Shown one piece after another: positions 1,681-59,224 of a DNA stretch of 64,000 nucleotides. The notes under the pieces are model-generated. The model saw nothing but the letters and a program-made list of their open reading frames with translations, made no database searches and had not been told where the DNA came from. Origin of the DNA: Nereocystis luetkeana (taxonomy: Eukaryota > Sar > Phaeophyceae > Laminariales > Laminariaceae); NCBI GenBank assembly GCA_031213475.1, contig JARUPZ010000024.1, positions 1,612,001 through 1,676,000 on the forward strand. The letters run 5' to 3'. A program made the translations under genes and the position numbers. Each line of letters starts with the position of its first letter. The first letter of the stretch is position 1.

Positions 1681-2061
1681 AAATAAAATTGAGCTGCTCC
1701 TTTATTTCCTGGTATTTTTTTTGTGTGCAGTTACGTACGTGGGCGACGTACAGGTAGTACGTACCCTGGTACCTGGTAGTCTACAGCGTAGCAGCCAGTT
1801 ATTTACTGGTATTCAATGTGTGTGGCGCCCTTTTTTCTGGCCGCCCCTTTTTTTTTCACGACTCCTGCACGCAACCTTCCAGCAAGCCAGCAAGTAGTTA
1901 TCGCAACGCCACTACTTGTTTCCCCCTGTGCAACAATTGCAGTCTACTGCGCGTACTCGTGTAAAAAAAACTTCCTGATGTTATTTATCTCGGTTCCTGT
2001 TGTTTACGTCGTATCCTGCGTGTACGCACTCGTTCGCATGATACATGTATTATTAATAATA

Positions 2062-2166
2062 TTACGGGGGACCATATTAAATTGGACCTATGGTATACAT
2101 AAAAACCTATACATTTGACCATTTTTACTAACAATATTTGGTCCTATTAACTATGGTCCCCCGTAA
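2062..2166. mobile_element. MITE M, 105 bp, TA target duplication
   Basis: Terminal inverted repeats of about 28 bp starting TTACGGGGGACCATA, flanked by TA on both sides. The interior is AT-rich. Three more full copies lie at 11706, 14522 and 36462. The size, the TIRs and the TA duplication fit a non-autonomous Tc1/mariner-like element. No transposase is present in the window. Confidence 0.8.
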
Positions 2167-3410
2167 TAGTATGTGTTTGCATGTTGTAGTATGTGTTTCC
2201 ATCGTTTGGTTTGCTCGGTGCGTACCCGACCCATCTACCCGTAGACGTACATGCTGCATGCGTATGTGTGTGATCTCCACGCTATCTATTGGGAATACAC
2301 AAGAGAAAAAAATGACGATAGGAAATGGTCATCACAGCAACGGCCACTTCGTGCGTGAGCACCATATTTTACGTGATTGGGGGATGATCCAGAGTTTGGT
2401 GTCCGAGTTACCCTGTGTGTGTGTACACGGTAGGGGTCGTATGGCTTTGGCGCAACGCGGTGCTACCCGTACAGCTTGGCGTGGTTGACAGTACTACCAA
2501 AACTGTCATTGTTTCGGCCGCTGTCTCGGGGTCCTAATGGTGGTTACCAGCCAGGTAAACCGTGCTTGCTACCCGTCCGTGGACAGCAGTGTACTTTTTT
2601 TTTCGAAGTGAGATTTTGTGAGGCCCCCCGCCCTTTTTTCCCGTATTTCGCCCTCACCTGCGCGCTTACTATGACAGCCGTACAGATTTGTTCCATCTGA
2701 GGTAAATTATCCCAACGGCGTCTTTGGTAAACGGCGGCTCGTTGAACGCCGACACCGCGAGGTGCGATCAACCACGCGCTACGTGCAGACAGCAGTACGC
2801 CTACACCGTGTGCCCCGTGCCTCGTACCCAGAGGAGGGGTGGTGAAATGAATAATACAAAGGGAACTATTCACAGTTCACATGTACAGCAAAATATTTTA
2901 CAGCTTTGCTACTGCTGTACAGCAGTAGAGTACCGCTCGGTCCCAAAATGTAAAGACCGTTTAGATACAATAGTAGTACGAGATAGGTCCTTGTTTTTCG
3001 GTATGATATGATGATATGATGCTCGTTCGAGTCCGAGGCGTGACGAGGGGCGTGACAGCTATTTTATTAATATTAATAATAAATCCGTCGACTCTGTGTC
3101 ACCTGCTGGCAGAATCATTCATACTTCATACATCTTCGAGTACCGAAGAACGTTCTCGTATAAGGTCGTAGCCTTACGATCAAAGTTTGTATTGCTAGGT
3201 CGCTATTGATAATAGGACCCTCTCTCCGTCCCTCCCTGCCCATGAGACATGTTGTTGGCTGTACAGGGTTCAACGCCCTGCTCATGGAGCAGGGTGTTAC
3301 AAGCTCTACAGAGTACAACAGGAGTATATACGTGCATGGAATAGGACACACTGTTGCGGTTTGGTCCTTGCATTTCGTACAATAGGTATATAACAGGATA
3401 GTTCATACTT
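2167..3410. other. No recognised gene
   Basis: Contains several TAC...GTA micro-palindromes (for example the overlapping pair at 2910-2927) and an AT-rich patch near 3065. The open frames over 2138-2700 have no recognisable domain. Confidence 0.5.
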
Positions 3411-3502
3411 AACCCTCTTAGGACCCCAGTCCCGTTTTGGGGACAAACTACTTATGATTAGACTGAATTGTCCCCACATATGGGAGTGCGGTGCTAAAGG
3501 TT
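3411..3502. repeat. Hairpin element H, diverged copy
   Basis: Left arm AACCCTCTTAGGACCCCAGT; the right arm is shortened around a GTCCCCACATATGGG core. Pairing of the arms is imperfect. See the copy at 32304 for the full description. Confidence 0.7.
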
Positions 3503-3836
3503 TACCTGGTACCTGGTAGGAGTGTAGCGCTCGCCGCTGAGCACATTTTCTTGATGGCACTTTTTTCAGCGTCCCTCAACAAGTGAGCCTCATGCTTTTA
3601 CTATTAATATAGTAATAGGTACGATAGGCTACTGTTTAATACTATCTGGTTCGGGCCTTACACTGCACCGCCGTGTATGTTATTTAGTATGTACGTAGCC
3701 TCCTTTTGTCTCCCAGGTGTTGACCACCAAGTCCAGGCTTGACGAGAGAGAGGTTCCTCCTTGAGGCGTGGTCGTTGTTTAGTCCTTGTCAGTATCAGAT
3801 TAGGCAAGACAGGGCTACGAGTACGCACTCGTGTTG

Positions 3837-3938
3837 ACCCTTTTAGAACTCCAGTCCGGTTTTAGGGACACACAACTCAAATTTCAAGTAATTTGTCCCC
3901 AATTGTCCCCAAAACGAGACTGCAGTCCTAAAAGGGTT
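3837..3938. repeat. Hairpin element H
   Basis: Full copy. The right half carries a duplicated TTGTCCCC, also seen in the copy at 25545, so these two may be a subfamily. Confidence 0.85.
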
Positions 3939-4147
3939 ATATAGGTGAGACGAAGTCAAACGCGCCGCACACACGAGTGGAAGGGATCTCCTTTTTAACC
4001 CTGCACCGACTTCTCTTGTGCGTCCCATCTTTCGCGCTTTGGAAACGCTGCCGGTTCGACAAGTGCGCCCCCTCTCCTTCTTATTGGCTCTTTTGTCCAT
4101 TTTTTTCTTGTGTGCCCTGCTTTGGTTTCCAGCCAGTTATCGGAATC

Positions 4148-4480: not shown

Positions 4481-4880
4481 TAGAGTTAAGTTTCTCGTTT
4501 TCCTGAAAATTACTTAAAGTGTACGGATCCCCCGAAGTGTCTTGTGGCCAGGAATTGCTCCTTCGTGGGCGGAGGGCAGAACAAAATCAAAACCCGCTTT
4601 ACACCAGACAGCAGTATACAAGGTATGACGCGAAGATGAATATTTGTTCATAGGGCAAGATGATGAACCTATCTTGCGTGCTTCCTACCCCCACCGAGCA
4701 TCTCCTATCTCCCGCTGCTGGTAGTCGCATTCACCCGACGGCCCATCAGCAGTCTTCCCTTGTGATTGCCCCATGGGCCATGCGTGCTTGAGCAAGTCAG
4801 TGGCGAAGGGTTGGCAGTGAATCTTCCTCAAGGTACTGCTGCTATTAATATACCTGGTAAGATTTATGCACTTTTTTATC

Positions 4881-4970: not shown

Positions 4971-7900
4971 TGCTTACTACAATCGGCTCGGTCAGCTTGC
5001 ACAGCAAGCAGTAAAAAAAGTATTTTTCCAAATCTCCACGCCACCACATCTCGACCCGGCTGAGCACCCCAAAGTCTTTCCAAGCACGGCATCGAAGCCG
5101 GCCGAAGCCCAAGCAAGCACAGCATCCGAGCACCGGTTACTGGAGTAGGGGTTACGGTTCGGATCGGGTGGATCGGCTTTAGGCGCACGGTCGTATCCCT
5201 CGTACCGGTATCTATGATGGTGTGATCCCACGCCTCGCTTGGTCGCGATGCCCCTCCCCCCGATTGCACCTTACACCCCCTATCCCCCACCCCCCTATGA
5301 TACTCGTATCATGACCCAAGTTGATGGCGATTGGGTATGGTTCTGTTTCTGTAGTAGTGGGCTGAACATGATCGGACCTTACGTTCCACCAATTTTAGAC
5401 TCCATCTTATGGTGTACCATCATATCTTGTTTTGATGGGTGTGTGTGTGTACTTGTCGGACGACTTGGTTACCCAGCGGGAGTTGCTACATGTCAATCTA
5501 AGCCACGCCGAAATGTATGCGCGCTGTTTGTGCCGCAATGGAAGCCAGTCAGATACCCATATTTCCATGGCGTTCTGTTGCTTGGACACTTTGCGTGGTG
5601 TACATCGGTACATGATTGTTGGTACCTCTGGGGGAGGCGGGCATGATGCCTGGTCGCTTATCCCACTGACTGCTGTCGCCTTATCCCCCCGGGTACAGCA
5701 CCGTACACGGTTCCGCCCCGAACTACTGCTGTTCTAGAGATTGTAATTCGAGCTGTTTATGTGTTCGGGCGAGATGAATATGAATAGGATCGTATCGGAA
5801 ATTGATCCAACTGCCGGTAGGGTCGACGCCATATTCATACCAGAGTAAATCCACACCGTCCGGAAATGTAAGGACCCGGCAGTATTTATACACGGACTGC
5901 ACTGTATTGTGGCGATGAGTTAATATGAGAACAACAACAATATTCAATATTTAATACCTGGTACCTAGAAGGCCTTTATATTTCAGGAGAGAATTTTAGG
6001 AGTTTGACTACGTCAACGTGGAGACCTTTCGCCCTACTAGATCAATGTACTGGCTGGTACATTGCGGTAGAGTTTGGAGGCACGGCGGCAAGAGTATCGG
6101 GTACCAGGTATCGGGTGCTGGTATGCAGGTTTAAGAACATTTTTTTGGCATTTTGACTGCTGCTGCTGCTGCTGCCGCGGCGTCTTTGCCACCTCCGGTC
6201 CCCATCGAACCACCACACCACAACCAGGCAGCGCTGCCGAGGAAAAGTCGTATCTTGTCTGGTATTATTCTGTAAGGGTGGCCATGGCGGTACTTCCATT
6301 TTCTAGCCAGCGAGGGAAAGCGGTGGGTAGCCGTCAGCTGTCGGCACTGCTGTATACCTAGCATGTACGATCATGAATTTATGAAGGCGAGTGTCTTGGA
6401 AGTAACATGCGCAGTTTACATGGCGAAATAAATCAAGCTGTCACGTGCTGAGAGCGTCTATTCTAGCGGGGGGGGGGGGAAGAGTAAGTCGACTGGGGAA
6501 GAAAGGGCTGATTTCTCCTCGCGACAAAAATTGCGTGTTGCACAATTATACTGTTGTTGTCTGCTATTAATAGTCTCCTTTTTGCTTCCCTGGTGTCCGC
6601 AGTGGTGGAGTGCGTATGCTTGTTTTTTGTTTTTTGCCTCTGTTTTTACTTGAGGTATTTCTTCCACTCCAGAGTTATTGGAGCCTGTCCTGCGACCACG
6701 GACTGCATTGAATTGTGAGTTAATGTGAGAACAACAACAAACAAACATCTGAAAGCACCAGCCGGAAAGCACGATGCACTACCATGAATTTTGCTTTATC
6801 TGTCTTGAGCGCGAGACGTCATGTTATGATACCGTATACCGAGTACCCGGTAGTATCGTATGATATGTACAGAGTGCAGAAATCATACACGTCATACATT
6901 ACACAACTTATGAATATCATACTCGTACGCGCTACGCACACATGCTGGTGTCGAAACGGCGGTACAATGCGCTGCCCGCCCCCCTTGGTTTCGAAGCGTT
7001 TGTACTAGGCATGGTATACGCAAAGACGCCATATGAGGGTGTTGACTTCCCGACAGCATCGAACGTGTGGCAGCATCGAAAGCAGGCAGAATCAGATTTG
7101 GCAAGATTGCTCTTCAGCGTGTACCAGTACAAGTCAGTAGTATAGTATTGATACTACGTGGCGCTGGACGATTGGCGCATTATGAGCTCGATGCACCCTT
7201 TGCTTGCCCTTCGGAGATGAGCAGCAGCTGCAAACGCATTAAATGTGGCGGCGCGCGGCGGAACACTTGGCAGAACACAGCTACCGCCGTGCCGTAGAGG
7301 CACATGACCTCGTATACTCGTGCAGTTATAGCGACTACGTACAGCAGTAACCTGTGGCACGATGTGCAGCGGCTATTGAATAGATCTACTTGGACTGTAG
7401 ACTGCGACACGGAGGCCGGAGGGCTACCGCGCCGCCGCTAGGCGACGGCAGTGGCATACACTATGTGGCATACACTATGTGTACATGCATGTACAGGTTA
7501 TATATATATATCATATATATATGCCAGCGGTAAACATCAAGCACATCAAAGCAGTTGCTTGTTTTTTTTCTTCTTTGTCAAAAACCTGAATCAACGTTCG
7601 GCTGTGGAGGCTGAATACTCCCTTCTTTCACGTTTCGCCTCTCTTTAGACATGCAACGAGGCTCATTCCTTGACTTGCACTATGATATATACCAGGTATG
7701 TGGGCATGTGCTGACATACGGAGACTGGAAGCAGGTCAGCGACGTAGTTACAGCTACGTACTTGCACATGAAAACCCCCCCCAGAGATTGCGACCTGCTC
7801 TGTATCTGGGGTAAAACACAGTCAGTATTAAAACAGCTACGTACTATGATATATGTGTATATATACGTAAGAAAAACATGCTGATGTTTATGGCTGACAG

Positions 7901-9070: not shown

Positions 9071-9244
9071 AGTGTGTACCTGGTAGTGCACCTAAATCGG
9101 GGGTTTCCAAGCAAAATGGCCGGAGCACAAACGGGAGTGACACTAAAACTACTAACTGTAGTATATTAGGGGGGCAAATTACAAATTACAAACAATACGT
9201 GGAAATACAGAGTATTGTGTGTGTGTTTTGCAGCAGTATACTTC

Positions 9245-9337
9245 ACCCTTTTAGTACGGCAGTCCCGATTTGGGGACAAATCAGTCTAGTTCCAAGTGGT
9301 TCGTCCCCAAAACGGGACTGCAGTACTGAAAGGGTGA
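9245..9337. repeat. Hairpin element H, well preserved
   Basis: The arms CCCTTTTAGTACGGCAGTCC and GGACTGCAGTACTGAAAGGG pair with few mismatches around a CCAAGTGG centre. Confidence 0.85.
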
Positions 9338-11167
9338 ATAAATACTCCATCACGTGTGTTACGTGCCTCGTGTGTGTGTCACACGTAGATACACAACAGA
9401 GAGGCGAAGAACGGCCGCTACATTCTACGAAGGCTCCTTACTCTCACACTCGAGCACTTAACCCCTCTCCTCATCCCTAGCTCCAGAGGCGGTACATCAA
9501 GTGCAGGCAGCAGCAACAACAACCAGTCTCGGTCCCACTTCGTGCGTACCTGACACCCTGGTAGTATTTTTCGACTGCGGTGTTACGAGGTGTGGCGTTA
9601 TCACATCACACGATCACACCAGTTCCATCGTAGAGATAGTTTATCATGTTGATATCAGAGGCCAACACCTGGTATGTATTTGTGCTCTCGTTTTCGCAGT
9701 TCGTAGCTGGAATGATTCTTGTCAGGGAGTATTATGTCACTATATCGCAGTCACTAATATTATGTCAACCGTGAGTCTGTGCTATTAATAATACGGTGCA
9801 CCCGTTCTGCACGCATACACCACACAGCGCACGGAACATGTATCTCAACTTTCGAATCTTTCGTATTATTACTCTGCTGTACTCGTACTGCATGCGTTAA
9901 CCGCACAGCACACAGAACAGGTATCAACTTTTTCAGAAGCGAGGCAGTAGGCGGTGAGGCGGTGACAGCAGTAGAGCGTGGCAATTGCATTCGTGGTAAC
10001 TTCAACTATGTACTTGCAGTAATTAACTGTACCGAGTGTGATCCAAGAACCAGAACCGGGCGAGTCGACTCTTTCAAGTCTGTTGCCGCGCGCTACAGGA
10101 TACCTGGTGCCTTGTTCCGGTATACTGTCCATTGACTGTATGATTCCGGAGGGTGTACAAATACACTCGTTAGGCATACGTTACAACTATGTTGATTATA
10201 TAGGGCACAGAGCATACAGGCATGCGTTTATGCGGTCTACATGCACAGCGACCAGATTGCCGTGTGCGGAGAATTAGGAAGCGAAAGACCCGCCGCAAGC
10301 CACCGCATGGAGGCGCGCGAATGCCCGAAAATTACGCTGCGTTCGATGCGCGCAAAGGTTTAAAATGCCGAAATAAAGGCTCGAAGTACCCCTACACCAA
10401 GATGTTGTACGTATGTAGCTCTCGTTCTCATGGCTGTGAGGCGGCTTACGACTACTGTAATGGGCCCACGCCTAGTTCTTAGTGGGGTGGTGGAGTACGC
10501 CAAGTATCATAGCTGACTTGGTTGCGTGGCGAAGTCTATAGCCAAGTACCGCATACATAGCCCTCAAGGTAAAATACGCCCTCTGACGGATTTCCATGCT
10601 GATTTTCTTGACCACGGATAGGGTGCAACTGCCGAGCGATGGAGCTATGGAAGCATCTCGAACGAGATTATTTCCAAAGTCCGGAGCCACCAGTTTGATT
10701 GCGCGTACGTGCCCCCCCCCCTCCCCTTTAGAAGGAAGTGGGCTCCGAAATTCATCCCAAGCGGCGTGTTGTCTTGCGTGTTGCCAACATACGGTAACTG
10801 ACTTACTGCTGCAGCTTTCATCAATAAAACACACCCCGTTGAAGCCACGAACGCACGCGCCCGTCAGGTACAAAAAACGCAAAATTCCGCGAATTTCCAA
10901 TCCCAGCTACCTGTACCAATACCTATAAATATGCGCCTGGTTCTCTAGGTAGACTATTATACCAGGTATGTATACGTACAGACATCGAATACATCGCGCA
11001 AAATATGCATGTAACACGTAAAAACGCGCACACGCTCGCGTTCGCAAACCCACTCGCCGTTTCGCAAAAATCTTGATCATTAGCGGCATTTAAATATTAG
11101 CCCCTGGTAGGAAATGCCTTTCTTTACCTATACTGAAAACTTGTACTTTTTGACCCGCCGGACGGAG
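9338..11167. other. No recognised gene
   Basis: Two similar words about 110 bp apart (CACACAGCGCACGGAACATG at 9821 and a diverged copy near 9903) indicate a small local duplication. A poly-C run lies at 10710. No exon with convincing splice sites was found. Confidence 0.45.
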
Positions 11168-11536: not shown

Positions 11537-11705
11537 GCGCTGTATTGACGGCTTCCAAGATTTGCGATTGCCGTTCGTGGGTGGTACACCGTTCGCAGTT
11601 TTGACCTACTTTTCGTGAAAACGGGCGCCGTCCACACGTTTTTCTTTGCCATTATTAATAATTGCCGTAACACCATCACTGATAAACAGCCAGCGGCTTG
11701 TTGTA

Positions 11706-11810: not shown

Positions 11811-12882
11811 TAGTCGGCCAACTCACCGCCCTACATGGTATCAAAGGATTAAGGAGACATGTCAAGCAAGGCAAAACGTGCTCTGTCAATAGTGTAGGAC
11901 CGAGTTTTTTTCACACTAAAACCTTCCAGTAGAGGTTTGGTGTGAGTGAAGACGTGTCGAGGCAGAGTTGCTGTCTGTCTGAAGGGGCGACAGCGGTGTT
12001 GTCTCCTGACGTATTTGCTTGTTGTGGTGTACGGCCGTACCTGGTACTACGGTGGCCGTGCTGTAATCACCGTTTGGAGCTTGGTACAGATAAACAAACG
12101 GTCCTTACATACACATGCACGGGCAGAGTCGTACCAGGTATGTCGCGTAATTTGCAGGATGTACAACATGATCTGAAGTTTGCTTTTCTCCCAGACTGCA
12201 GGCATTGTGTGTTTGCTTTGCCCTCTTGACACTTTATTTTTTTTTTTTCTTGAAGTTCGTTCTTCTTTGTGGGTCGTCGACTCCGCCAGATATTGCGACA
12301 TTGAGACGCTAAAACTTCCCTCCACAAATACATACCTGTAAGCATAGAGCAGTGAGCGTACTTTTACGGCGGTGTAGTGGTGGTGTTTTACTGTGTGTGT
12401 ACACCAGATGTGTTTGTGTAGGATGCATACCTGTATTATGTATCGTTATCAAACTCCGCCCATCCCCGACCCTTTGCTGTACGGTATAATGTCCTGCTGC
12501 AATACTCGCATCAATGTACTCGTAGTCATGCTGGGGTATACATTTTTTTGTGTGTTTTCAGTCACCTGTCATGTACCTGGTTGTGCGTTCCTTTTCTTTC
12601 TTGCTCTTTCCAGGGATTGGTTTATTTGAGTTATCGGTGTTTTTGGTTGTGTATTTTTGTAGGACTTTTGGACGGACCAGCATCCAGTATTGCTGCCTCG
12701 TACGGTAGTTTCGAAATCTAAACGCTACACCAAGCCGTGTATGATAACAGCTGTACCACTTTTCCTTTGTATCATATCGCAAAAGCTAATTTGCTAAAAG
12801 ACATTGCTGTATTGTACGCGTACGACAACGAACTCGTGCGCCATCTCCCTCTTTTCGTCGTGCCGTGCCTACTCGAGCGCAG
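11811..12882. other. Probably upstream intron of the ankyrin gene
   Basis: No exon was identified. The frame of exon 1 stays open upstream as far as about 12737, but it meets no ATG there, so the codons before 12883 are either intron or an unrecognised longer exon. Confidence 0.4.
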
Positions 12883-13024: not shown

Positions 13025-16000
13025 GTGTCTCGCTGAGGTCCTTTTTCACTTGCTTTCATATATACTTCCGGGTTGATTTTTCGCTTGCTTTTCGCATATT
13101 TCCGGATTGGTACATCAACATCGTATCATTTTTATAGGTTTTTTTTCGCACAAGACTTTTTTTTTGGTACATCAGTATAGGCGTACCGATGGTGTTGCTC
13201 TCGCCGGGGGCGCCGAGATCAACGCCGGAGGCTGGGATGGGAACACCTCTCTCTACAAGGTGTCTTGCTGAGGTATTTTTCACATGTTTTCATGTATGTA
13301 CTTCCGGGTTGCTTTATATCTCGCTTCCAAATAACTCCGAGTAGACATACTGTATCATGTCATACACGAAGTTTATTTTTCGCACGAGACATTTTTTGAT
13401 GATCTGGTACAGCAGGGGAGGCCCATGAACAAGAAATAATCTAATTATGAAAGGTAGGCTCATTTTTGAGGGGATGCATAGGAAAAATCGGGGTCACAGC
13501 GGCGAGCCTCACTAAATTCTGCTGGTGTATCATAGCAGCCAATGGTCAAGGTTTTGCAAGGATGGCGCCGCAAGAAGGTTCTACGTAAGGCTTGTGCTTA
13601 CATTACTACAGGTGAACATAAGTCATCAGGGCCAAACATGCGCAGTAAAAATACTGGAATATAGTTGTTTTTTGCTATGTTTTTTAGGTCCTGATTACTA
13701 TGGTCCCCCGTAAATAGGTATTTCTTGTTGGCGGGCCCGTACTCCTCGTACTGTGTACCATTTGTACCGTACAACTCGCAAGACAACACACCCCCTTGGG
13801 AATTTCAGTTCCTGACTCGGTTTTCTTCCTCCAAAAGGTTGTTAATCGTTGGGGCACGAAACGAAAAGGTGGCTGTGACAAAATCTCGAGATCTTTCCAT
13901 GGATGTATCTTTGGCTACGAGCATATTTTTAGGTGTGTGTGTTCGTTCACATTGGAAACCTTTTTTTCTTGGAAATATCTCACGGAGAACGATCTTCTCG
14001 CTCTCCCTGTAGTCGGGGAAATCACCTTACATCACTCGTCCAGGAGGGCGTGTGTGGATCTTGCGCGTTACGCGTCCTGTTATTTATACGTAAAGGGTAG
14101 TGTTGCTGTCTCCTTTCTCGTGTTGCAGCTGGCGGCATTTCAGCGTTGAATTGCGGCTGAAGCAAGACGGCACGTCGCTTAAATATGGCGCCAAGTACAT
14201 TGACATAGAGTCTCGTGTCCTGTGTTGCAACGGAGCATCTCAGTGTTCCATTTCGGAAGAAAGCAAACGGCATCGTAGTGTTGCTCAGACGACGGACGGC
14301 AATCATTGTTGAAAAACTCACAGCAGAAATATCGGTATTGTACAACAGATTACGTAGCGGACTATATATCCGAAATGCTACCACTGCTGTAGCGACAGCA
14401 GTACTACGCGGGCAAGTTGTACGTAATAAAAACCAAAATATGGTGTGCAAATAAACACGTACTCGTAGGGATACCTGATTTTTTTCTTGTCAATCGTGGG
14501 TTGTGGTTGATACTATTAATATTACGGTGGGCCATAGTTTATAGGACCAAATATTATAAGTAAAAATCGTTAAATATCTAGGTTTTTATCTACACCATAG
14601 GTCCTATTAACTATGGCCACCCGTAACAGCGGAATCGGTGTTTGTTTTCGCGTCTCTGTTACAGCAGTACATGTGCTACAACGTTGCAACAGACAACAGA
14701 GAGCTGCTCGCTGTTCATAGTGTGGCGTAACGAGGGTGAGCAGATGGTGGAATGGGTGACGAGGGCCATCGCGGCCGTCGACAGCTTCTCCAGCAGCTCA
14801 GCAGCCTTCGTCCTGCCGCGCCGTTCGTGTCTTTTTTTGTCGAACGGTTCGTCCACCCGTATTGCACACAGGCACGATGACAATTCGCTCAGTGGTGATT
14901 AGTTCACATATACACTGCTGTACTTCGATCATATGAAGTACTAAAATATGTTAGGGTCACTCGTACACATCTATCTACTCGGACACCACCAGGTGGCCGT
15001 TGGTCCGCGTACGCTTGTGCTTTCTGTCCTCGTGTCTCCGCGTCGTGTTGTCTGCTCGCTACTGCTCCTTCTTGCTGTGTTGTTTCACAGCGTGAAGAAA
15101 AACACAGCACGGCACAAATATGTCGAAAAAAACGAATCACCGACATACCTGGTATACGAGTACACAATGTACCTGGTACATTTTATAACGCACATGAGGT
15201 ATGTATAAAATAAATCGAGTTCGTTCGGTACAACGAACCTGTCAGAATTTGTGCATAGATCAGTTGTTATTGTTGTTGTCTTGACATTAAATCGTTCTTT
15301 CTACCCAGCTTTCATCAGCACACCCAGTGTCCTAGGGACAAACTGATTCTGTGGTGACAGACTGTGACCACAGAACTTGTATCTCTTCTAGGATTGAAGA
15401 ATCGGCACGGACACTGGTTGTGCTGGATGTCGACGGGTAGAAAGAACGGTTTAATGTGAAGAACACACTGTGAGACAGGAGACCAAAAAAACAACAATAA
15501 AAACAAATTCAAGTGCTGTCAAGCAAGTGAAAGGCCAGCGTACCGGGTACGACAACACAACAACACAAGCAAGACCGGAAAAATAAGAACAAAAAGACAA
15601 TAAAACCAAAACCAAAAATCTGAAATGAAACAGAATCCAAACGACGCAAGGACTCTTCTACAAAACTCTGAACTCTAGAGCCTACACACTTACACGCTAT
15701 TATTACCACATCCCGAATAGCCACGGGCTGATTCGTAAGACAATACTTACGAACCACCAAGCTTGCAAAGTGTGAGTATGGAGAGGTTTTGAGGAAAATT
15801 TGGATCTAACTCTACAGCAGCACTGCAGGCCCACGAACACAAATAATAAACTACTGCTGTACCAGGTATATACTACTGTAAAAAACGCATGAGCCTCACT
15901 TTGTTGAAGGGGACGCTTCTAGTACTGCAGTCCCGTTTTGGGGGCAAACCACTTGGAATTAGACTGGTTTGTCCCCGAATCAGGACTCCAGTCGGGACTG

Positions 16001-19000
16001 CAGTACTAAGGGGTTTCAGAAACCTCGATTATAAAATCGTGCTCGGCGGTGAGCGCCAGCCACACTATATAATTCCAGGTATATATAAATATTTTTCGCA
16101 AGGTTGCTGAAGGATGGTGTCACTCTGAGGTAAACCCTTTCAGGGCAAACCGCAGAGTCCTGTTTTGGGGACAAACTACTTACCGTGTGACACTATCACA
16201 CTAGGGTGATAAGGTAACACACCCCCTCGGACAAATTTTCAGAGCTGGTTGTACTCGACAACGGGGAGGACGTACTGAATACGCCGAGCGATGCGTCTAT
16301 GCAACCCTATCGACGAAATCTATCCAAAGCGACCATTTTCGTTGTGTGTGCGCCCCCATGTTTTGTGTAAAGCCTGGTCTGAAATTCGTCCCAGGGGGTG
16401 TGTTATCTTGAGTGTAGTATACGATAAGAATTTGAATGTTTTGTCTCCAAAAGGGACGGCAGTCCTAAAGCTCGGGAGGGGTGTTTCTTGATGGCGGGCC
16501 CATTCTGTAACCAAGTGATATCGGAATACAGCAGTATGCACCCAAGTGCCCCCTGGCCGGAAATGCAAGGTCCCAAACGTCGCTACATCCCAGGACAGCG
16601 GCAGTATATACATGGCATATTCTCTGTATACGTTCGATACGTACTTTTAATACCTGGTACTGGTACGGTTGTACATACGTACTATCAATATTAATAGTAA
16701 TACTAACTGTAGTATTTTTTTCTGTATGTTTTCAGATCTAAGGCATGTACTCGTACCGTATGCAGTGGTTGTTGCTGTTGCTGAAGGTTGAAGATGGCCC
16801 CACGGGGGTGGCGCATTGACACAATCCAGCCCCGTGTTGTTGTTGTTGTTGTTGTTGCGGAAGATGACCTCACGTCGGCTCATTGCACACGTTGTTGTCG
16901 AAAAAAATGCAGCCCGTGATGGCTGAAAAAGACCCCAAGAAGTCTACCAGAGTACGAGTAGCGGTCCCTCTGTAGTGCCCTCCGATGAGCAGTGCCGGCT
17001 GCCTCTTCTAGTGCCTGGGAAATCGCTTTGCACGGATGGGATTGAGCAATGTGGAAGTGGGCGGAATTGTGCCGGTTGCCGCTATAGTGCGGGTATTGTT
17101 GGCTGGCGCATACCATACCGGCTACTCTAGAGGGTCCTTCGCTGCTGTGTTTCTACATGCCCGACAGATCGCGATCTACTTGAGGCAATGCAGATCCCAG
17201 CCTGCCGTTTTGAGGTGATGTGCAGGATTTGTGTACAGCGGTCAGTCGTACAGATCCCACCCAAGAAAACTGTCCTAGATTAGTACTGCAGTAGGATGAT
17301 ACGACCCCCACGCGGCAACACGAGCGACTGTACGTCACACAGATCAGGAATATGTACGTGTGCAGTGAATATCTAGATATGTCATGAAATGGTCATTGAT
17401 TGTCTCTCCGAGGAGCGGAACGTTCGTAACTATGTACAGGCATCTGGTATACGAGGCATCTCATAGTAGTACACCACGTACAGCAGTAGTGGATCACGTA
17501 AGTTGCTTGCGTTTGGTCGGAAAAGGTGTTTTGGGTTGGTCGGGTCGATGTCTTTGTGGTGGTCTCAGTTTTTGTCCCTGGCGTGAGGGCGACATGGAAA
17601 AAACCCTCCGTCCTTTTCCTCTCTCGCGCACTCACGACAGTCTGCATCAACTCTGGCATCGATCGGATTGATTCGGTGTTGGTGTGTTGTGTGTGGTGCG
17701 ATAGTCATCACGTTTACTCCCCCGGCTCAAACTCACATGGAACTATTAACCCTCTCTTAGCACCGCACTCCCATAAGTGGGGACAAAACACTCAAACTAT
17801 AGGTAGTTTGTCCCCAAAACGGGACTGGGGTCCTAAAAAAAAGGTCATATTTCAGGCTCCTCGAGGAGGTTACGGGATTTTACTGCAGATCCCTCCTTGT
17901 AATCTACACACCCTGGTTTTACGCTACCCTGGTATACTCGTGCTCTGATCCAACAATCTTTCGAAGATGGAGCCGGTCTAATAGTCCATCAATATTTTCA
18001 TGATAAGAGCTCTCTCTATTAGCAGTTTTTGTTTTCACAGTCTTTCAGACCTCGGGACAGATCACGATCTACAAGCAGTAGGTTATTTACTGTAGATCCT
18101 AATCTGAGGTGTTGTGCAGGATGCCCATGGATAGCACAGCGGATCCAAACAACCAAGGGAAGAAAACCTGTCCCGGAGCATGCGGATCGTGCGGCTCCCG
18201 CCCGGCAGCATGAGCTAGATCACACATATCAGTCATCCATATATCTGCCTCGCAATATTTAGATCATCCGCTCTGTGGGAATCAATGAGCCGTCCAAGGT
18301 GTCCAATCTTGAATGATAGCGCTCTATGGTACTCATGTGCTTTTTTTTCTTGTTGTGTTTTCGAAGGCGGCTAGCAACGGCAAGGCTAAGCTCTGCCGAG
18401 AGATGGTGAGGAGAGGGGCCGATATCGACGCGACAAATAAGACCGAGTACACGCCGCTGCACTGGGCAGCTTTCAAGGTGAGAGTTTCCACCGGGGACGG
18501 AAGGGGAGGGGCGTAGGGGGGGAGGAGAGGCGTATCGCCAATTTGCAGTCCCTGTCATGGTAGTCGAAAGAACGTATTGCTCGGTAAAATGCAGTTCATG
18601 TACGTCTACTTGGAGCAATTTTTCGTAGCAATAAATAGTTCATGTATAGTGTATGTTGAGGCAACAAGGAGTCGATCAAGACCTCGGGTCAGAGCATATG
18701 GTGTGTGTATCGATCGCCTTTGTAAGAGCGCCTGTGCTTCACATCGCACCATCCGGCCATCTGGCGCCTCCTGTGCGTCGCGTGGCTTTACGAAATCCGA
18801 ACCCCCGACCCCTTGTCTACGGCGGCGCTTTTCTTGCGCGTTGTGCGCGGCGCGTTGGCGCCTCGCCATCCCCCCACCTCCTCTCCTGTCTCCTCTCCCC
18901 CCCTCTCCAACGCATCAACTGATCGACTGTTGGCAGGGACACAAGCAGACTGGCGAGCAGCTTCTAAAGTGCGGTGCGAATATCGATGCCGTTAGCTCGA

Positions 19001-41861: not shown

Positions 41862-43461
41862 CCTTGAGGGCTACCTGGTATTTCCAAGCCTAGGGGAACT
41901 TTCTTAGCTTACCGGTTATTTATTTTGCCCCAGGAGATATTTCTTAGCCAACCGATTACTGCTTTAAGCGTACGGACTACCTGGTATTTCTTAGCTTTTG
42001 TAGGCTGCCAGGTATTCCTTAGCTTAGGGGCTAGGTTAAGGCCGAGGAAGGCATGGTGTTGTGACTATAATATTGAAAGGATGTTTTGTTTTTTTTTGTC
42101 GATGAAAATGATGGGTGGATTAGTGTTGGATGGACTGATAATAAAGAGGTTGGTTTGGGTGGAGAGAGCGTGGATGATGCCTCTAGGTTGTGGGCATGAC
42201 GGTGAAAATAGGTGGTGTGATGAATAATGTTTTTTTTACGGTTCTGCTTGCTTTCCTGCTTTGCTTGTTGTCTGTTTTGCTGGCTGTCTCGGGGTCGGCT
42301 TGCGAGCTGGAGGGCGTGCGTGTGCAACGCACGCGCCGCACCTCTTTTCCACAATCAGGTCCAACTTTTCACTTTTCTCTCCACCTTGCCCCCTAAGTTA
42401 TGTTTAGTGACATGTTATTCGTGTTGTGTGGTCGTAAGGCATGTGGGCACACGACAGCCTACGGGCTATATATGACGATAATAAAGTGGCTTTTTTTTTT
42501 ACTTACCGTCCTGGCCCCAGTCCGCAGATGACAAGATTAAGATTATGCGACCTGTTGTTTTTGTGATTGATTGTCGATTGGTCACAAAAGGCGCCTAAGG
42601 GTATTCGACACAAGACATCACAGGCAGTAGTTTTGAGGAAACGGACAAAACAAAGGAAGCAGCGTTGATTTTCGCGCTTCTTCTTGCAGGTGCCTTCTTT
42701 CTATTTTCATTGGTTAGCAGAGGAAGGGAAGGGGGGCGCGGGGGAAGGAGGGATACGTTCTATAGCTACGTGTATTGTCTGTCTGTAGCCCTACTTAGAA
42801 CTTACTGCAGTGGCTGGATATCGGGTCGTCAGTGGTGTGTGCGGGAACACGGAACGGAAAGCGGGGAGGGGCGCGCGTTCTATGTTGAGAGCTTGGGTGT
42901 CTCCTTTTCGCCTTTTCATGTCTCATGTAAAAAATATTTTCTGAAACCTCGGGGTATATCACGATCTGGAGAAGGACTTCTCCGAAGTACAGAACGTGCC
43001 TCTCTGTGTGTTTTTTTGTACGAGCATCGCACATTAATAGTACAATCACATCGGCGTCAGAAAATCACGTCAAAGCGCCCTTCAGATGTATTTATACCTG
43101 GTGCGTGGTTTGAAATTAGTCCAGATAGAGAACCGAAGAGATACCCGCTCTGCCCCGAAATATAGCGACCATTTTATATTAATTTTCACTACAACTTGTC
43201 CTTATATTTCGGTACACAGCGGAAAACTCTTAGGAATTGGCTGGTATGTACACGTAAGTCACGGGTGTCTCCTCTTCTCATCAACCCAGGTACTTGCCAT
43301 CATTTTTTTTTCACGCATGGCAGGATTTGGCATTCCATTCAGCTTTCATTCCAACTGCTCCATCTATTTCCATCGAAGTTGCCGTTTATAGCTCGCTCTC
43401 TCGCGCATGCCGCAACAGGAGACAAAAAAATGTAGCATCCTACAATTATTGATAGTGAGAG
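41862..43461. other. No recognised gene
   Basis: At 41870-42040 the word TTTCTTAGCTTA/GCCAGGTATTCCTTAGCTTA recurs four times with TACCTGGTATTT, a small local repeat. The remainder holds short unsupported open frames, including one of 166 codons at 42665-43165 without a recognisable domain. Confidence 0.45.
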
Positions 43462-45745: not shown

Positions 45746-45749
45746 GTTC

Positions 45750-48588: not shown

Positions 48589-48765
48589 CCGTCAGAGTGG
48601 TACCATATTGCTGCTGGTGTACCAACACCACGCGTTGCACGAACGAGTATAGATACTTGAACCAAATTCAGTTTTGCATAATAGTCACCGCAGCAGTATG
48701 AGTAGTTGAAAATAAATTATCCTTGTTTCATAGGGTTGTTGTTAATAGTTGTTGGCAAAACTTGA

Positions 48766-48898: not shown

Positions 48899-50597
48899 CC
48901 CCCCCGAAAAAAAACACGCGATTGGCCTCTTTCTTAATCAGGTACCCCACTTAAGACTCGCGACTGACACGATCTTCTAACCGATGCCGCAGTCGCGGTA
49001 TCATCTTCAAGATGGAATGTATTTCGGATCCATGTTGCGATCCTCTGTGTGGTACAGAGGTATCTTCTGTCTATTCGTCTGTCGATTACTTTTTTTCTTA
49101 AAAAAACAAAAAAAATGCACATTATTAGCTGTGAGTTCAACCGATTACTTTGTAGTCGTCGTCGCACAGGCGCAATATCAAGAAACCCTGGTGTAGACCA
49201 CTGCCGCCGTATATCTGTCACGTTCGTCATTCCCACTCTTCCAGTAATAATAGTAGACTGCAAAAGAGTCTGGTGCATCACCATAATTATTATGCTTGCC
49301 ATCCGACAATGCGTAGTAGTAGTGTTGTTATAATAAACGACTAACAGAAAGTGAAGAACTCTCCAGAACAAAAGCGCGGTAGTATCCTACGACAAATCAG
49401 AACTGATGATGTGACGCTCATGAAGACTACTACTACTATTAAGGTCTACAACACCAAGCAGTTTTTTTTCTAGCATGTCGAATGCGCTTTACGTACCACG
49501 ACGAATGCCCGATATCCCCGCCCAGTACGACCAAGAGTAGTAGTACCGATAATCAGCACGCAAACAAACGCTCAGTCTCGGTCAAACCCCGTCTGCTGAG
49601 GTGCCGTCTGTGCCGATTCCGACTGGTTTCTCTCGTCACTCTCACCAACTCCAACAACAGCGACTTCTCAAAAAGAGACAAGCGAACTGAGAACAGCGCT
49701 CGATTGTTTTTCATCGAGAGAAATAACAATTATATGAAATAAAAAAGACACCCTGAAATGACTCTTAATACCACTGCTGTATAACTTCCAAAACATTTAC
49801 ACATACTGGTACCAGGCATGTATGTTGCATACTTTCGTACTCGTTGTGTCGACTCTCTTTCCACCACGCAAATTTTCCCATAGACGGTGCGCGGGTTTGA
49901 CTTCGTATGGAGGCGTATTTTTTCAAAGCGGGAGGCCGGAAAGGGCGGAGAGGAGTTTGTGTGAGCACATCATCATCACTGTAGAAGAGTAGCGCCAACG
50001 ATATGCGTTTCCCTGAATCAGATGCTGTCCCTCGGTGTATACTTCTCCTACTTGTTTGTTGCGTTTTTCTCGAAGGTTGAACGCTCGCATAATATGAGGA
50101 GGTGTGGGATACATCCCGGTGGATATATATGCGTTTGCATTTATTTGGTCTCTGGCGATGAGCAGCGCTCTTGTTTATTGCATCCTGTGAGTCGATGTGA
50201 CAGTTCTCGACCCGACAGGCAGACATCGAGACAAAAAAAAAGTTTTTGGTTGGAGAAGCGCCTCTGTCAGCTGGGGAATTACAGGCGCGATTGTCCTGTG
50301 TGGGTGCAACACAAACATCATGGTATCCCCGTGTTCCCTCTATGACGTATGGGGTCGTTGCGGCGTTTCTTTGGATAAAACCACGCTGCTGATACTTGCC
50401 CCTCCCGCCAGAGTTCATCTGCGCGGCTGCAAGAGAAAGCTAAGCAAGGTATACCTAACACATTTGTGAGTGTTTAAAAGTAATCCAAGGTCAACCTCCA
50501 TAGTAGAGGAGCCTCTCCCATACCAGGTACTGCACAATGCTATCATGTTGCCTACTACAGTAGTAGCTTAGGCTTCGTACATACCCGGTACCTTTAC
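48899..50597. other. Mostly unassigned; one small frame
   Basis: An ATG frame at 49482-49742 (86 codons, MRFTYHDECPISPPSTTKSS) has regular codon use and ends in a stop overlapping AAATAAAAA, which may be a poly(A) signal. It could be a small gene, with no family recognised. The rest is AT-richer DNA without visible exons. Confidence 0.3.
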
Positions 50598-50753: not shown

Positions 50754-51565
50754 CTGTGTTCGACGACGTGGCCAGCAGCTTCGGCAAAAGGGGTACCGGC
50801 CCACACCTCGTACACCGCCACCCCATCACATCTTCATTCCGAGAAAATTGACAGAGGTCGGGATCGGGGGTAAGGCTCTAAGGTATACTTCAACCTTATC
50901 ACACCTCGAACAGATGGTGAATTCCCACTTCAAGATGGTATTGTTATTGCACGGCCAAGGAACGGGGTTGGCGTGCTATTTCCACAAGCGTGTATACTCG
51001 CAACCATCCGTTGTCGTTGGTCGGGTTTGTCTGATGAGCGATTATGAATACCGCATTCCTTGTGATCTCTGTTCTACACCCCCTCATGGTGCTTACTGGT
51101 GGTAAAAAACAGCACGAAGTAGATGGAAGAAGAGGCACATGATTTTATTGGAGCGGTTAGTGGTTGGCGGGGTTGCTGTGTCGGGGGGGGCGGGTGTAAT
51201 TTGAAATTACGAAAGTTTTAACTGTAGACCAGCGTGCGTATGAGATACAGTTTCAACTTTAGGTCAGCGTGCGTAGGAGGTTGTTTTCCGCTTGAAAATA
51301 GACTCGACGAAGAATTGAGTGCGGCTCCGTTAAGTTGGATGAATATGTACCAGGTATCTAAAGATTTTCACCGCACTTTTGCACCCAGCACGCGTGACTC
51401 AACCGACAGCAGTCCCTCGTACTGCTGGAGAAACTAGAAACTGCCACGAGACTTTACCGAGCACACGCAGCACAACAAACACCACACTGCGCAGCCCAAC
51501 TCGGCACACAGGCCGTAATTCCAATGCCCGACCCAGCTAAAGGTTAACTGACGGGTAGTAAGCGC
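50754..51565. other. No recognised gene
   Basis: Contains GATGAATATGTACCAGGTAT followed by AAAGATTTTCACCGCACTTT (51338-51376), a word repeated at 55801-55838 and 55845-55862. Confidence 0.45.
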
Positions 51566-55526: not shown

Positions 55527-56110
55527 GCTCGCACTTGGCCTGCACGCTAAAACTTCGATACGTTACGTATCATAGACGGCATTAAAAATGAAGGCGCGGG
55601 CCCGTTACGGTCCGAACGCAACCTTTACTTTTTTTTAGAGATAGATGTAGATGCACTTCAGTTATCCTCGGGCGAGCGGTTGAGTACGGCAGCCGCACTT
55701 AACTCTTTCAGGACTGCAGCCTCGTTTCGGGGACAAACCCGTCAATCTCTAAGTAGTTTGTCTCCAAAAACGAGACTGCGGTACTAAAAGGGATAAGTGG
55801 GATGAATTTGTGTCTAGAGATTTTCACCGCACTTTTGTGTCTTAGATATTTTCACCGCACTTTTTCCGCTGGCCTTGGGCGAGCCCGATTGGCATTTTGG
55901 GAGTCACCTTTATTATGTCAAATATGTAACTGCCTTATGCTTCCCTTTCAAATTTTGGGTTTGCACGTAGCTTGCACTGTAAAACGTCTATGCGTTACGT
56001 ATCATGAAGCTTTAAAAAAGACGGCATCCGAAATGAAGACGGGCACGTTGCGGTCCGAGCGCACTTCTTAGAGGTGTAGAGATGTGCTCCAGTTACCATG
56101 TGTACGAGCT
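55510..56110 (+). repeat. Two copies of a 150-bp repeat flanking an H element
   Basis: Shared words: GCTTGCACTGTAAAACGTCT/GCCTGCACGCTAAAACTTCG, CGTTACGTATCAT, AAATGAAG.CG.GC.CGTT, GGTCCGA.CGCA. Copies lie at about 55540-55680 and 55970-56105. Confidence 0.65.
55701..55795. repeat. Hairpin element H
   Basis: Full copy between the two 150-bp repeats; arms CTTTCAGGACTGCAGCCTCG and CGAGACTGCGGTACTAAAAG. Confidence 0.85.
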
Positions 56111-56365: not shown

Positions 56366-57290
56366 ATTGGGATGCTGGAAGTCAACTCTGATAACTCCAC
56401 ATACAGGGCACCCGAAGAGGTGTGGTTTATACGATGACGATCGCCTCCGCGAGGGCTTCAACCTGGTGCCTGTGGCATGGGCGTGGCCGTTTCGAAATAA
56501 AATTATCCGTAGGTGACCAATGAATGGCTCTCATCTCACAGACACTTTTTCTGAATCCGTTTAAAAGACCACAAGTGTACCATTTGTGGAAGGCCCGACC
56601 GAACACGCCGCATGATCTAGCACATGCTTCCGGGGTTGGATCTGTACTATGCAGACCCTTCTGTCAAGTGTAAGGCAGTAGCATAATGCCACCACAGGGG
56701 GAAGGGGATACCAGAACACTTCACAACCTCTCACAGCCGCTGGTGAGGAACTAGGGTATAATAAAGCTGCATAGCTGGTACAGCTACTGTACTTACTGTA
56801 GTACCACAACAGGAACTGGGAAAAACTTTAGTAACATCTATTAATAGAAAGGAAAACAAGAGCGAAAACGTCTGGACGCGCGCAAAAAATGTCCGGTCTC
56901 CTATTGTGGCACAGTAAGGCCACAATTAGCCAAGAGAAGCCATGACGCGCACGAAAAAAAACGTGTTTCCTAATTAATATCGTTTCATTCGCCACCTGAC
57001 GATGTGTATAGAGCGAATTTCAAGAACCAAAAGCTAATACCAGGTACCAGGTATGAAATTCGGGATGCTGGAAGTCAACTCTGAAAACTCCACACACAGG
57101 CACGCGAAGAGGTGTGGTTTGGACCACATAACGATCGCCTCCGCGAGGGCTTCGACCTGATGCGTGCGGCATGGGCGTCGCCGTTTCGAAAGAAAGTTGG
57201 CCGTGGGTGCCCATTGAGTGACCCTGATTGCTCAGACAGACAGACAAATTTCTGAATCCGTTCCAGATACCACAAGTAAGTGTGGAATAA
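56366..57290 (+). repeat. Direct repeat of about 215 bp, two copies
   Basis: GGGATGCTGGAAGTCAACTC starts both copies (56368 and 57062). Both continue with CGAAGAGGTGTGGTTT and GATCGCCTCCGCGAGGGCTT and end near CTGAATCCGTT and ACCACAAGT. A fragment of repeat G (TCCGGGGTTGGATCTGTAC, reversed) lies between them at 56601-56660. The ends are not inverted, so a segmental or LTR-like origin is possible, but I see no coding content between them. Confidence 0.6.
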
Positions 57291-58160
57291 CAGAAAATCC
57301 TGACCAAAAAGCGTGAAGAATAATGCCGACAAAAATACTACGACCACTACTACAGTACACATAAACCTCCTTGCTGTGTCTCCTATTCAAAGCATCTTTA
57401 CTGGAGAATATTTACATAGGTGCGCAATAGTAGAGAACGGGATTGCTGAGGATACCGGTACGGAATTGTGGAGAAAAAGGGATTTTGCTCGCGCGGACGA
57501 TTTTATATTTCTGGTTTGTAAATATAACAATGCCGGAGTGGTTTGATTGGTGGACGAATCGTGGCCGAGCCGAACCAAATTTGGCTAACACCTGTTTGCG
57601 GTCGGCGGGGGGCATCCGGGATACATCCCCGGGTTTCGTAGGTGGATATGGATCACCCCGGCTTTACCATATACATATGTCGGAGAAGCAGCAATCACAA
57701 ATAAGGTGCGCGGGATATTTTAGCGATTTCCCAATATCTGAGTCATCGAGCACGCTATACGAGGCAGATATTTTAGCGCTTTCCCAATATCTGAGTCATC
57801 GAGCACGCTGTACGAGGCACCGAGCGCGCGCAACATCCATGCTGCGAGTGTTGTGTACTTCGACAAGCACATAAATCGAAAAGTTGCAATGAATTAGTAG
57901 CTATATAGGATACTCGTTTCGCTACCGAAACAAAAGGTCGAGGATGAAGAAAACAATTCGTCGACCTCCGGAAATGGTACGTGCCAGGGCATACGCATAA
58001 ATAAATAATCCAATCCCCACCACGTACTTGAGGGTGAAACAAACAGGGGACAGCGAAAACACGATACACGCACGCACTCACGAACATCACCTCAGGCAAG
58101 AACCCATCGTACGTACGGTGGACGTGCCATCTTCGCAACCTGACACAACGCGACTGACTG
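57291..58160. other. Unassigned, with a 53-bp tandem duplication
   Basis: 57714-57766 is repeated at 57767-57819 with two differences (GATATTTTAGCG.TTTCCCAA). Open frames over 57313-57874 (ELWRKRDFARADDFIFLVCK and PEWFDWWTNRGRAEPNLANT) look faintly protein-like, but no family is recognised. Confidence 0.45.
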
Positions 58161-58424
58161 ATGCTAGCTCGTTGCTATCAACACACACTCTTATCACCTC
58201 CTGTGGGACCCCGAGGTAGCGACGATAACGATGACAACTTCCTTCGGCGTTTTATTTCAAGTGTCTACGAGCAGCACGACGAGCGGAAGTGCGGGCAGGA
58301 TCATGATGTGCCCGTCCTGCACGACTCTTGGCATCGTCAGTCGGGCACCAATTTGCACATTGCCCTAACTAGACCACGCAGTTGCTGTACTCGCCTACTG
58401 TGTATCGTCAATTCTGCCCTATGA
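58161..58424 (+). CDS. Candidate coding stretch of unknown function
   Basis: An 87-codon open frame with a protein-like middle (DNDDNFLRRFISSVYEQHDE, VPVLHDSWHRQSGTNLHIAL). It starts at TTG rather than ATG, and splice sites are unclear. It may be an exon or a remnant of a transposon gene. Confidence 0.2.
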   Translation: MLARCYQHTLLSPPVGPRGSDDNDDNFLRRFISSVYEQHDERKCGQDHDVPVLHDSWHRQSGTNLHIALTRPRSCCTRLLCIVNSAL

Positions 58425-58599
58425 AGTCCCAAGACACACTAACTGTACTACTATACAATCAACATGAACGCCTTTTTGCGGTCGTGAGTGCTCGGACTGC
58501 ACCTACGCGGACTGCACCTACGCGTTGCTCTTTCGCCTCACTGAAAATATTCCAACCACACAGGTAGACTATGTCACCATGTCCCGAAATATAAATAAA

Positions 58600-59224
58600 C
58601 GTTGGGTTTAACAAATAGTGTAAAACCGGTTCTTAGATAATGGGACAGAGTGGTATGGTAGACTAGAATACCAGCAACTGTGTCAGCGAATCGTATGGCA
58701 GACTGTATGTACCAGGTACATACAAATAGTTTATACATTGAGAACAGAAAACGCCGAAGACCACGTCTGATGCGGCACGCTCGAAATTACGTCTCGCCTA
58801 GACGCAGGACCCCCCCTCCCCCCGCCCGATCAACCCCGACAAAATTACAATCGGCCTAAGCAACAGCGGCTACGACGGCTGGTTCGTGTCCTTTCTCTGC
58901 CGGCGACGAACAACACGCGGGGCCAACGGCTCCAACAATCGGAAAATCCTGGAAAATTCCTGGAAATTCCTGGGATTTTTCCGACGCAACATACTGTGAT
59001 ATCCATATCATCTCTCGCTACCCCCCCCCCCCCCCTCCCTCTCATTTTACCAGCATGCAAACACAATTCCACTCTAATTCCCAGTAGTTCGCCCCCCAAG
59101 CAGTTCTCAAGGGTTTTTTACCGCTTCAAAAATGATTCCCCACCAATTTCAAGTACAGTCTGTCCCAAAGCTAACGTGGGTGTACTTGTTCTCTTCCTTC
59201 ATAAGGGGGGTCAGGCTAAGTTTT
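58600..59224. other. No recognised gene
   Basis: Contains a short GGAAATTCCT/GGAAAATTCC stutter at 58939-58975 and a poly-C run at 59021. A worn half of H (CTCTAATTCCCAGTAGTTCG) lies at 59071-59120. Confidence 0.45.
59071..59120 (+). repeat. Right half of hairpin element H, worn
   Basis: CTAATTCCCAGTAGTTCGCC, then CAGTTCTCAAGGGTTTTTT. Confidence 0.45.

Follow-up and report, generated by a model that had tools for sequence, protein, structure and literature searches.

Tc1/mariner elements cut with 3' overhangs, and the footprint of Sleeping Beauty has been given as TA-CAG-TA (PMC8151067) and, in a second review, as TAG(T/A)CTA (PMC2874221). The plant mariner elements Stowaway and Osmar left a TA duplication plus mixed 1- to 4-bp fragments of their terminal inverted repeats at the single loci studied, and they inserted repeatedly at the same TA and beside old footprints (PMC1925063). 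The pogo-type element Passer leaves 0 to 4 bp (PMC9976928). In the brown alga Ectocarpus, 17 Mariner-Tc1 families with 11,912 copies, mostly non-autonomous, have been described in a paper whose main text holds no word starting with "footprint" or "excision" (PMC12477816). HIP1 and similar iterated palindromes of cyanobacteria are hugely over-represented and have been linked to methyltransferases (PMC4390886). Here, we describe a 9-bp word, TACC(A/T)GGTA (TACCAGGTA/TACCTGGTA, written TACCWGGTA below), in a 64-kb stretch of the Nereocystis luetkeana genome (contig JARUPZ010000024.1, positions 1,612,001 to 1,676,000; referred to as the window) and in the remainder of the same assembly. The word is probably a footprint of excision, left by cut-and-paste DNA transposons that target TA (Tc1/mariner/pogo-like) and belong to one family or a few.

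Like the Sleeping Beauty footprint, TACCWGGTA has a short, odd palindromic core with a variable centre, lies between two TAs, and arises at a TA; the core left by Sleeping Beauty derives from the ends of the transposon, which stay behind as 3' overhangs (PMC8151067), and we infer the same origin for TACCWGGTA. It differs in that CCWGG has five bases and not three, in its 182,395 genomic copies, and in the elusiveness of its parent. The Stowaway and Osmar footprints (PMC1925063) share with TACCWGGTA the TA duplication and, probably, the short end fragments and re-insertion, but here one form dominates genome-wide. HIP1 (PMC4390886) is likewise an over-represented palindrome, whereas TACCWGGTA is a 7-bp insertion at a TA where copies can be aligned. 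The kind of scar is already known; the length of its core, its uniformity, its scale, and its elusive parent are unusual or new. We know of no report of a single footprint at this density. A search of open papers found none of such density, which is weak evidence, and a literature query with TACCWGGTA gave no algal-genome title among the matches listed (titles only).

TACCWGGTA occurred 33 times in the window (17 copies of TACCAGGTA and 16 of TACCTGGTA, as read on the + strand), compared with a mean of 0.35 and a maximum of 4 in 100 dinucleotide-preserving shuffles. An earlier note on this DNA had claimed at least 30 copies, far above chance, which these counts bore out, and all 18 of the coordinates that it named were exact matches. 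The note had also set its claim against a Markov-model expectation: models of order 1 to 3 gave 0.4 to 0.7 copies in total, far below 33, and models of order 6 to 7 came near it (21 to 32), but the latter were trained on pieces of TACCWGGTA itself. The genome-wide 9-mer count that the note proposed as a check gave the strong excess it anticipated. Specifically, the whole genome (465,085,209 bases in 1,987 contigs) contained 182,395 exact copies, with equal use of the two strands (91,240 + 91,155), and the backwards-read control word was found 1,744 times (861 + 883), which corresponds to a 105-fold excess.

Letter-level analyses were carried out on a 254-kb sample that consisted of the window and 19 stretches of 10 kb (190 kb, named L0xx) from the same assembly. 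Stretch L022, which contained tandem arrays and no TACCWGGTA, was excluded from the site lists used for sister copies, related-word Markov models, decay, target flanks, and the insertion scan. When the sample was divided into 2-kb bins, TACCWGGTA was present in 64 of 127 bins and the reversed word in 1 of 127. By this bin excess over the reversed word, it topped all 9-mers tested, in a ranking that excluded words identical to their own reverse. The centre base was nearly balanced among the 102 sample copies (A in 54, T in 48), and the density of copies dropped as G+C rose (Spearman -0.50, p 0.012, 25 windows). A microsatellite or tandem 7-mer was rejected as an explanation, as just two tandem pairs were found among the 33 window copies.

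To locate sister copies, each site with 45 nt on each side was searched in the sample. An alignable sister copy was present for 5 of the 102 TACCWGGTA sites (L011 5126, L001 9130, L004 7814, L008 7327, and window 51348). In all five cases, at least one sister lacked exactly 7 nt, compared with 2 of 157 control TA-N5-TA sites (Fisher p 2e-8). A sixth site, L004 642, was in the list of matches restored by removal of 7 nt. At the level of individual alignments, the gap was exactly -7 in 20 of 27, -3 to -6 in 7, and 0 in none; the seven that were not exact came from a local tandem array in L008, from a miniature inverted-repeat transposable element (MITE) in L011, and, once, from the L004 family. 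The TA of a sister copy corresponded to TA-CCAGG-TA in the carrier, and deletion of CCWGG plus one TA restored an ungapped match. The empty sister of window 51348 (55794-55837) had TG where TA was expected. In an unguided scan of all 5- to 12-nt insertions between repeat copies, TA was the commonest duplicated dinucleotide (12 cases), followed by GT (5), and the recurrent TA cores were CCAGG (2) and CAG (2), all of which are small numbers. The sister copies that lacked exactly 7 nt argued that TACCWGGTA is, very probably, a 7-bp insertion at a pre-existing TA, made up of a five-base core that is palindromic except for its A/T centre and a duplicated TA. This finding holds for the alignable cases.

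The same alignments bear on the idea that a highly iterated palindrome is kept or made by methylation-linked mismatch repair in the manner of HIP1, with the CCWGG core as the methylation site. CCWGG is a classic methylation site, and TACCWGGTA is palindromic and hyperabundant without long shared flanks, all of which would suit such a process. However, in our reading of the HIP1 model (PMC4390886), such a word would arise and vary by substitution with its length unchanged, and every one of the 27 sister alignments contained an indel (a gap of exactly 7 nt in 20, never 0). In addition, the TA pairs outside CCWGG belong to the word. HIP1-like maintenance was rejected where sister copies exist, and we consider it extremely unlikely as an account of the word.

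It was also conceivable that TACCWGGTA belongs to one or more repeat families that were amplified, and that its count is mainly family copy number. In two host families, many copies appeared to bear the insertion, and hence TACCWGGTA copies are not all independent events. For the L001 family, the best 40 of 1,292 genome candidates for a 99-nt query included 21 matches of 98 to 99 nt, the length with the insertion, 7 of exactly 92 nt, and 12 others of 95 to 106 nt. Site L011 5126 lies inside a 105-bp MITE, for which 14 sister alignments in the sample lacked 5 to 7 nt (exactly 7 in 11 of them). Genome-wide, all 40 scored matches to this MITE were full length with the insertion (best 40 of 2,314 candidates, query copy included), although the ranking of matches for both families favours insertion-bearing copies. 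Because the scored L011 copies were all full length, this MITE contains either an insertion hotspot or an amplified scarred subfamily; independent hotspot insertion and amplification of one scarred copy both fit.

Across the sample as a whole, however, no two of the 102 copies had both flanks in common (ungapped, 20 nt per side, pairs less than 100 bp apart excluded). This agreed with the earlier note, which held that no single repeat family carries the word, and a single transposable element family was rejected as the carrier. Insertion-free sisters existed at all five sites with sisters, and sisters were rarer at scar sites (5 of 102) than at control sites (157 of 783), although the 7-nt gap itself hampers sister detection at TACCWGGTA sites. 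Given this balance, amplified families are quite unlikely to be the main source of the count. The 102 sampled copies set a lower bound of about 1,700 equally frequent distinct sites (95%), and the rarity of sisters at scar sites suggested that the true number is much above this value. The number of events is below the 182,395 copies, since host families can multiply scars. The 105-bp MITE, which has the ends TATTACGGGGGACCATAG, was found at window positions 2060-2168 and 11704-11812, at L004 4076-4184, and at L011 5067-5182; a first look at the genome gave 2,314 candidates, and, judged by length, at least 40 copies bear the scar at one internal TA.

The target of the insertion was examined with 192 left flanks (both sides per site), which were compared with all TA dinucleotides after flanks abutting another scar were removed. 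T was favoured at position -7 (1.87-fold), A at -6 (1.81-fold), A at -3 (1.44-fold), and A or G at -1, where T was rare. The chi-square values (3 d.f.) were 79.5 at -7, 41.9 at -6, and 35.6 at -1, and there was no bias at -12 and -11 (0.2 and 0.5). The claim in the earlier note that copies share no longer flanks thus stood in the sense that no two copies shared both, but not for positions -7, -6, and -1, which were strongly biased. The restored target consensus, TAnnanR(TA)YntnnTA, was weak, AT-biased, and about 16 bp wide, and it was symmetric about the TA and reached 7 bases to each side. A TA target with a symmetric flanking preference is what is expected of a Tc1/mariner-type footprint.

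Several related words behaved in a partly similar way. TACWGTA, TATTAATA, TACAGCAGTA, and TACGAGTA were all more frequent in the sample than their reversed words; TACAGCAGTA and TACGAGTA, but not TACWGTA, were also in excess under a Markov model of order 3. Exact insertion was seen at 5 of 38 TACWGTA sites with sister copies (control TAN3TA, 14 of 248) and at 3 of 7 TATTAATA sites (control TAN4TA, 13 of 251), with these words included in both controls. A nested series from TA to TATTAATA to TACAGTATTAATA was found at one locus (L003, L018, and L004), and TACTATTAATA, a frequent context of TATTAATA, was present in 17 copies versus about 0.16 expected. TATTAATA behaves as a putative second scar class of the form TA-TTAA-TA (L004 7170-7182, L018 771, L008 3185, and others). 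The flanks of TATTAATA and TACWGTA differed from those of TACCWGGTA, with TATTAATA preferring C/G, which suggested that several transposase families were involved.

An excision footprint could have formed as follows. An element would insert at a TA and duplicate it, and a transposase would later excise the element by staggered cuts, so that the last five or so bases of its ends (CCAGG or CCTGG) stay on both flanks as 3' overhangs. These overhangs, self-complementary but for the middle base, would anneal, and TA-CCAGG-TA or TA-CCTGG-TA would result once the mismatch at the centre (A:A or T:T) was repaired. The scars would be inherited and would decay slowly, either TA of a scar could take a new insertion and so give rise to tandem scars, and scars would be multiplied whenever a host repeat was copied. 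A core that is self-complementary except at its centre, duplicated TAs, and a symmetric TA target are expected of TA-transposon excision in which 3' overhangs are annealed and ligated. As in a footprint, the empty site had one TA, and the site with the insertion had two, separated by a short core.

The 7 bp might instead have been added directly, without an excised element, by a repair process or enzyme that adds CCWGG and duplicates the TA at TA breaks or nicks (templated micro-insertion). This idea gains from the fact that the parent element is not proven and from the uniformity of the unit (102 TACCWGGTA versus 14 C/G-centred sites). On the other hand, no repair enzyme is known to us that would insert a constant palindromic core of five bases and also duplicate the TA, which counts against direct addition, and the symmetric target consensus and the sister scar classes with CWG and TTAA cores resemble the work of a transposase. 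Direct addition is unlikely in our view, though it carries some weight.

Copies of TACCWGGTA with one mismatch outside the centre numbered 86 versus 48.1 expected, and the excess lay mostly in transitions (47 versus 16.3 expected) rather than transversions (39 versus 31.7 expected). This transition-biased excess fits old, inherited scars that slowly decay. Decayed copies were about one third as many as intact ones, and the C/G-centre sites (n = 14) were equal in number to the commonest other change, CACCAGGTA (n = 14). The decay spectrum is relevant to a developmental, programmed removal of TA-bounded elements that would resemble the removal of ciliate internal eliminated sequences but leave a scar. 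The very many scars, the few elements at most in the sample, and the TA boundary are compatible with such removal, and candidates for the activity would include a DDE_1-type gene that was domesticated. Ciliate excision, however, is precise and leaves a single TA, whereas the sites here retain another TA plus five additional bases, and fresh somatic scars should lack the transition bias that fits inherited, mutated ones. Programmed removal is very unlikely to explain the word.

Several observations weigh against an excision footprint. The five-base core is long compared with the 0 to 4 or 1 to 4 bases given in the cited passages (PMC9976928, PMC1925063), such strong dominance of one form is unusual, and the letter-level evidence is limited to 254 kb. 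The GT-N5-GT control showed exact-insertion support at 12 of 273 sites, in a set that includes GTACCAGGT, which is part of the scar. Four other words had no exact-insertion support in the sample (TACAGCAGTA, 0 of 3; TACGAGTA, 0 of 39; TATSATA, 0 of 14; TACCSGGTA, 0 of 4). The window 51348 stretch had a single other match in the genome, which was distant and showed a net gap of 4 and not 7.

The search for a parent element added to these points. Half-sites (TACCWGG without the second TA) were found just 48 + 43 times in the sample. There were 873 pairs of facing TACCWGG ends, 802 of which had a whole scar at one or both ends; of the 71 scar-free pairs, three reached 7 of 11 matches past the core, and only L007 6568-9378 extended well. 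This pair has TACCAGGGTC at both ends, which lie 2.8 kb apart and form an imperfect inverted repeat of 30 bp (22 of 30 bases alike), and its 17 of 25 matches past the core were the best of all pairs. With a chance rate taken from random TA pairs (28 of 196,931), about 0.12 pairs as good would be expected among the 869 compared, or 0.01 if the 71 scar-free pairs are counted alone. None of the seven open frames checked in L007 6568-9378 had a transposase domain, and no transposase was linked to TACCWGG ends. DDE_3 (PF13358) had no match in the genome.

Given the chance expectation of about 0.12 and the frames without a transposase domain, L007 6568-9378 is a weak candidate that may lead to a non-autonomous element but does not prove one. 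A partial second copy (of L007, - strand, 623) was found on C23, where matches at 3667200-3667254 and 3667607-3667673 were separated by 407, compared with 415 in L007. The C23 copy seemed to differ from L007 before TACCAGG, as it would at an element end, on the basis of four bases. In a genome search with half-sites, 78 of 91 passed the filters, 55 were queried, and the best 40 of 4,392 candidates were scored; each query started at the half-site, so this search cannot show generally whether copies begin there. Half-site L008 3845 gave 27 of 44 matches, but the four preceding bases matched too, which places it inside a repeat. The TTACGGGGGACC and TTAA/CCCTTTTAGGAC MITE families, both abundant in the sample, were rejected as the source of the scar because their ends differ. 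The genome contained 28 matches to DDE_1 transposases, including one in L024, where a frame of 350 residues contains a DDE_1 domain, and this gene was rejected as the source because no inverted repeat was found around it within 4 kb. Transposase_1 gave no match in the genome, and the control genomes were silent as well. The parent element of the putative footprint is elusive and may be extinct or rare. The window copies are listed in Table 1.

Table 1. Putative TACCWGGTA scars in the window and the one insertion-free sister stretch
Feature	Position	Strand	Basis
TACCWGGTA, putative scar	1770..1778	-	exact match
TACCWGGTA, putative scar; tandem pair 3503/3510 member 1, one TA in common	3503..3511	-	exact match
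TACCWGGTA, putative scar; tandem pair 3503/3510 member 2	3510..3518	-	exact match
TACCWGGTA, putative scar	4851..4859	-	exact match
TACCWGGTA, putative scar	5955..5963	-	exact match
TACCWGGTA, putative scar	6102..6110	+	exact match
TACCWGGTA, putative scar	7690..7698	+	exact match
TACCWGGTA, putative scar	9077..9085	-	exact match
TACCWGGTA, putative scar	10960..10968	+	exact match
TACCWGGTA, putative scar	12038..12046	-	exact match
TACCWGGTA, putative scar	12132..12140	+	exact match
TACCWGGTA, putative scar	15146..15154	-	exact match
TACCWGGTA, putative scar	15170..15178	-	exact match
TACCWGGTA, putative scar	15860..15868	+	exact match
TACCWGGTA, putative scar	16651..16659	-	exact match
TACCWGGTA, putative scar	20746..20754	-	exact match
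TACCWGGTA, putative scar	20815..20823	-	exact match
TACCWGGTA, putative scar	23261..23269	+	exact match
TACCWGGTA, putative scar	23974..23982	+	exact match
TACCWGGTA, putative scar	27070..27078	-	exact match
TACCWGGTA, putative scar	28169..28177	+	exact match
TACCWGGTA, putative scar	28821..28829	+	exact match
TACCWGGTA, putative scar	30493..30501	+	exact match
TACCWGGTA, putative scar	31191..31199	+	exact match
TACCWGGTA, putative scar	34055..34063	-	exact match
TACCWGGTA, putative scar	34159..34167	+	exact match
TACCWGGTA, putative scar	41872..41880	-	exact match
TACCWGGTA, putative scar	41978..41986	-	exact match
TACCWGGTA, putative scar	50521..50529	+	exact match
TACCWGGTA, putative scar; in-window sister copy lacking exactly 7 nt	51348..51356	+	exact match and sister alignment
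Sister of the 51348 stretch without the insertion	55794..55837	+	44-nt ungapped match (91%) once 7 nt are removed; otherwise 7-nt gap
TACCWGGTA, putative scar; tandem pair 57038/57045 member 1	57038..57046	+	exact match
TACCWGGTA, putative scar; tandem pair 57038/57045 member 2	57045..57053	+	exact match
TACCWGGTA, putative scar	58710..58718	+	exact match

Other repeats were noted in the window. Short inverted-repeat elements of the form TTAACCCTTTTAGGAC...CAGTCCCGTTTTGGGGACAA were present at 3409-3476, 3834-3939, 9242-9341, 25543-25648, and 32301-32406, among others, and their inner motif gave 45 fuzzy matches in 254 kb; with TTAA beside their CCC ends, they are presumably piggyBac-type MITEs. 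A minisatellite at 21262-21850 had 11-, 22-, and 90-bp periodicity, with CGAGGGTTCACCGTAGGTATAC as the 22-bp unit. A 170-bp direct repeat (98%) was present at 47610/48420 (47610-48589), and its inverted partners were found about 7 kb away, near 55004-55150 (region about 54827-55150). A retroelement RNase H match (4.3e-10) was located at 52177-52839 on the - strand, and an integrase core match (1.2e-4, below its cut-off) was located at 52752-53522 on the + strand, with its end overlapping the RNase H frame on the opposite strand. The region 52177-53522 may be a Ty3/Gypsy-like element that was rearranged or nested.

Elsewhere in the assembly, a 62-nt stretch recurred five times on contig C9 with 100% identity (5433281, 5546937, 5660673, 5774242, and 5887805; spacing of 113.6 to 113.7 kb), which reflects either a large segment repeated in tandem or an artefact of the assembly. 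The rbcL gene, which is of the red-lineage type and whose features suggested a brown alga, gave 131 matches on small contigs (C62-C1228), 103 of them with an equal best score; many redundant pieces of plastid DNA are thus kept in the assembly as contigs of their own. No phycobilisome proteins were found in the assembly, while the control cyanobacterium matched.

A bolder version of the excision footprint, which we think improbable but worth stating, is that this lineage has, or had, an extraordinarily efficient and high-fidelity system of TA-specific excision that removed nearly all insertions of an element class and left one uniform five-base scar. Such a system might perhaps pair a dedicated sticky-end ligation with a transposase of the pogo/mariner type that was domesticated and is active in the germ line, and it would correspond to programmed transposon elimination but be inherited and leave a scar. 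If TACCWGGTA is an excision footprint, its count would reveal how many transposons were excised in the past and from which target sites, to which repeat annotation is blind because the elements are gone. It would also caution that an over-represented motif may be a scar and not a regulatory site. The copies would serve as natural footprints, available on the scale of a genome, for the study of target choice, end-joining fidelity, and transposition rate, and the genome would be a dense fossil record of past transposition.

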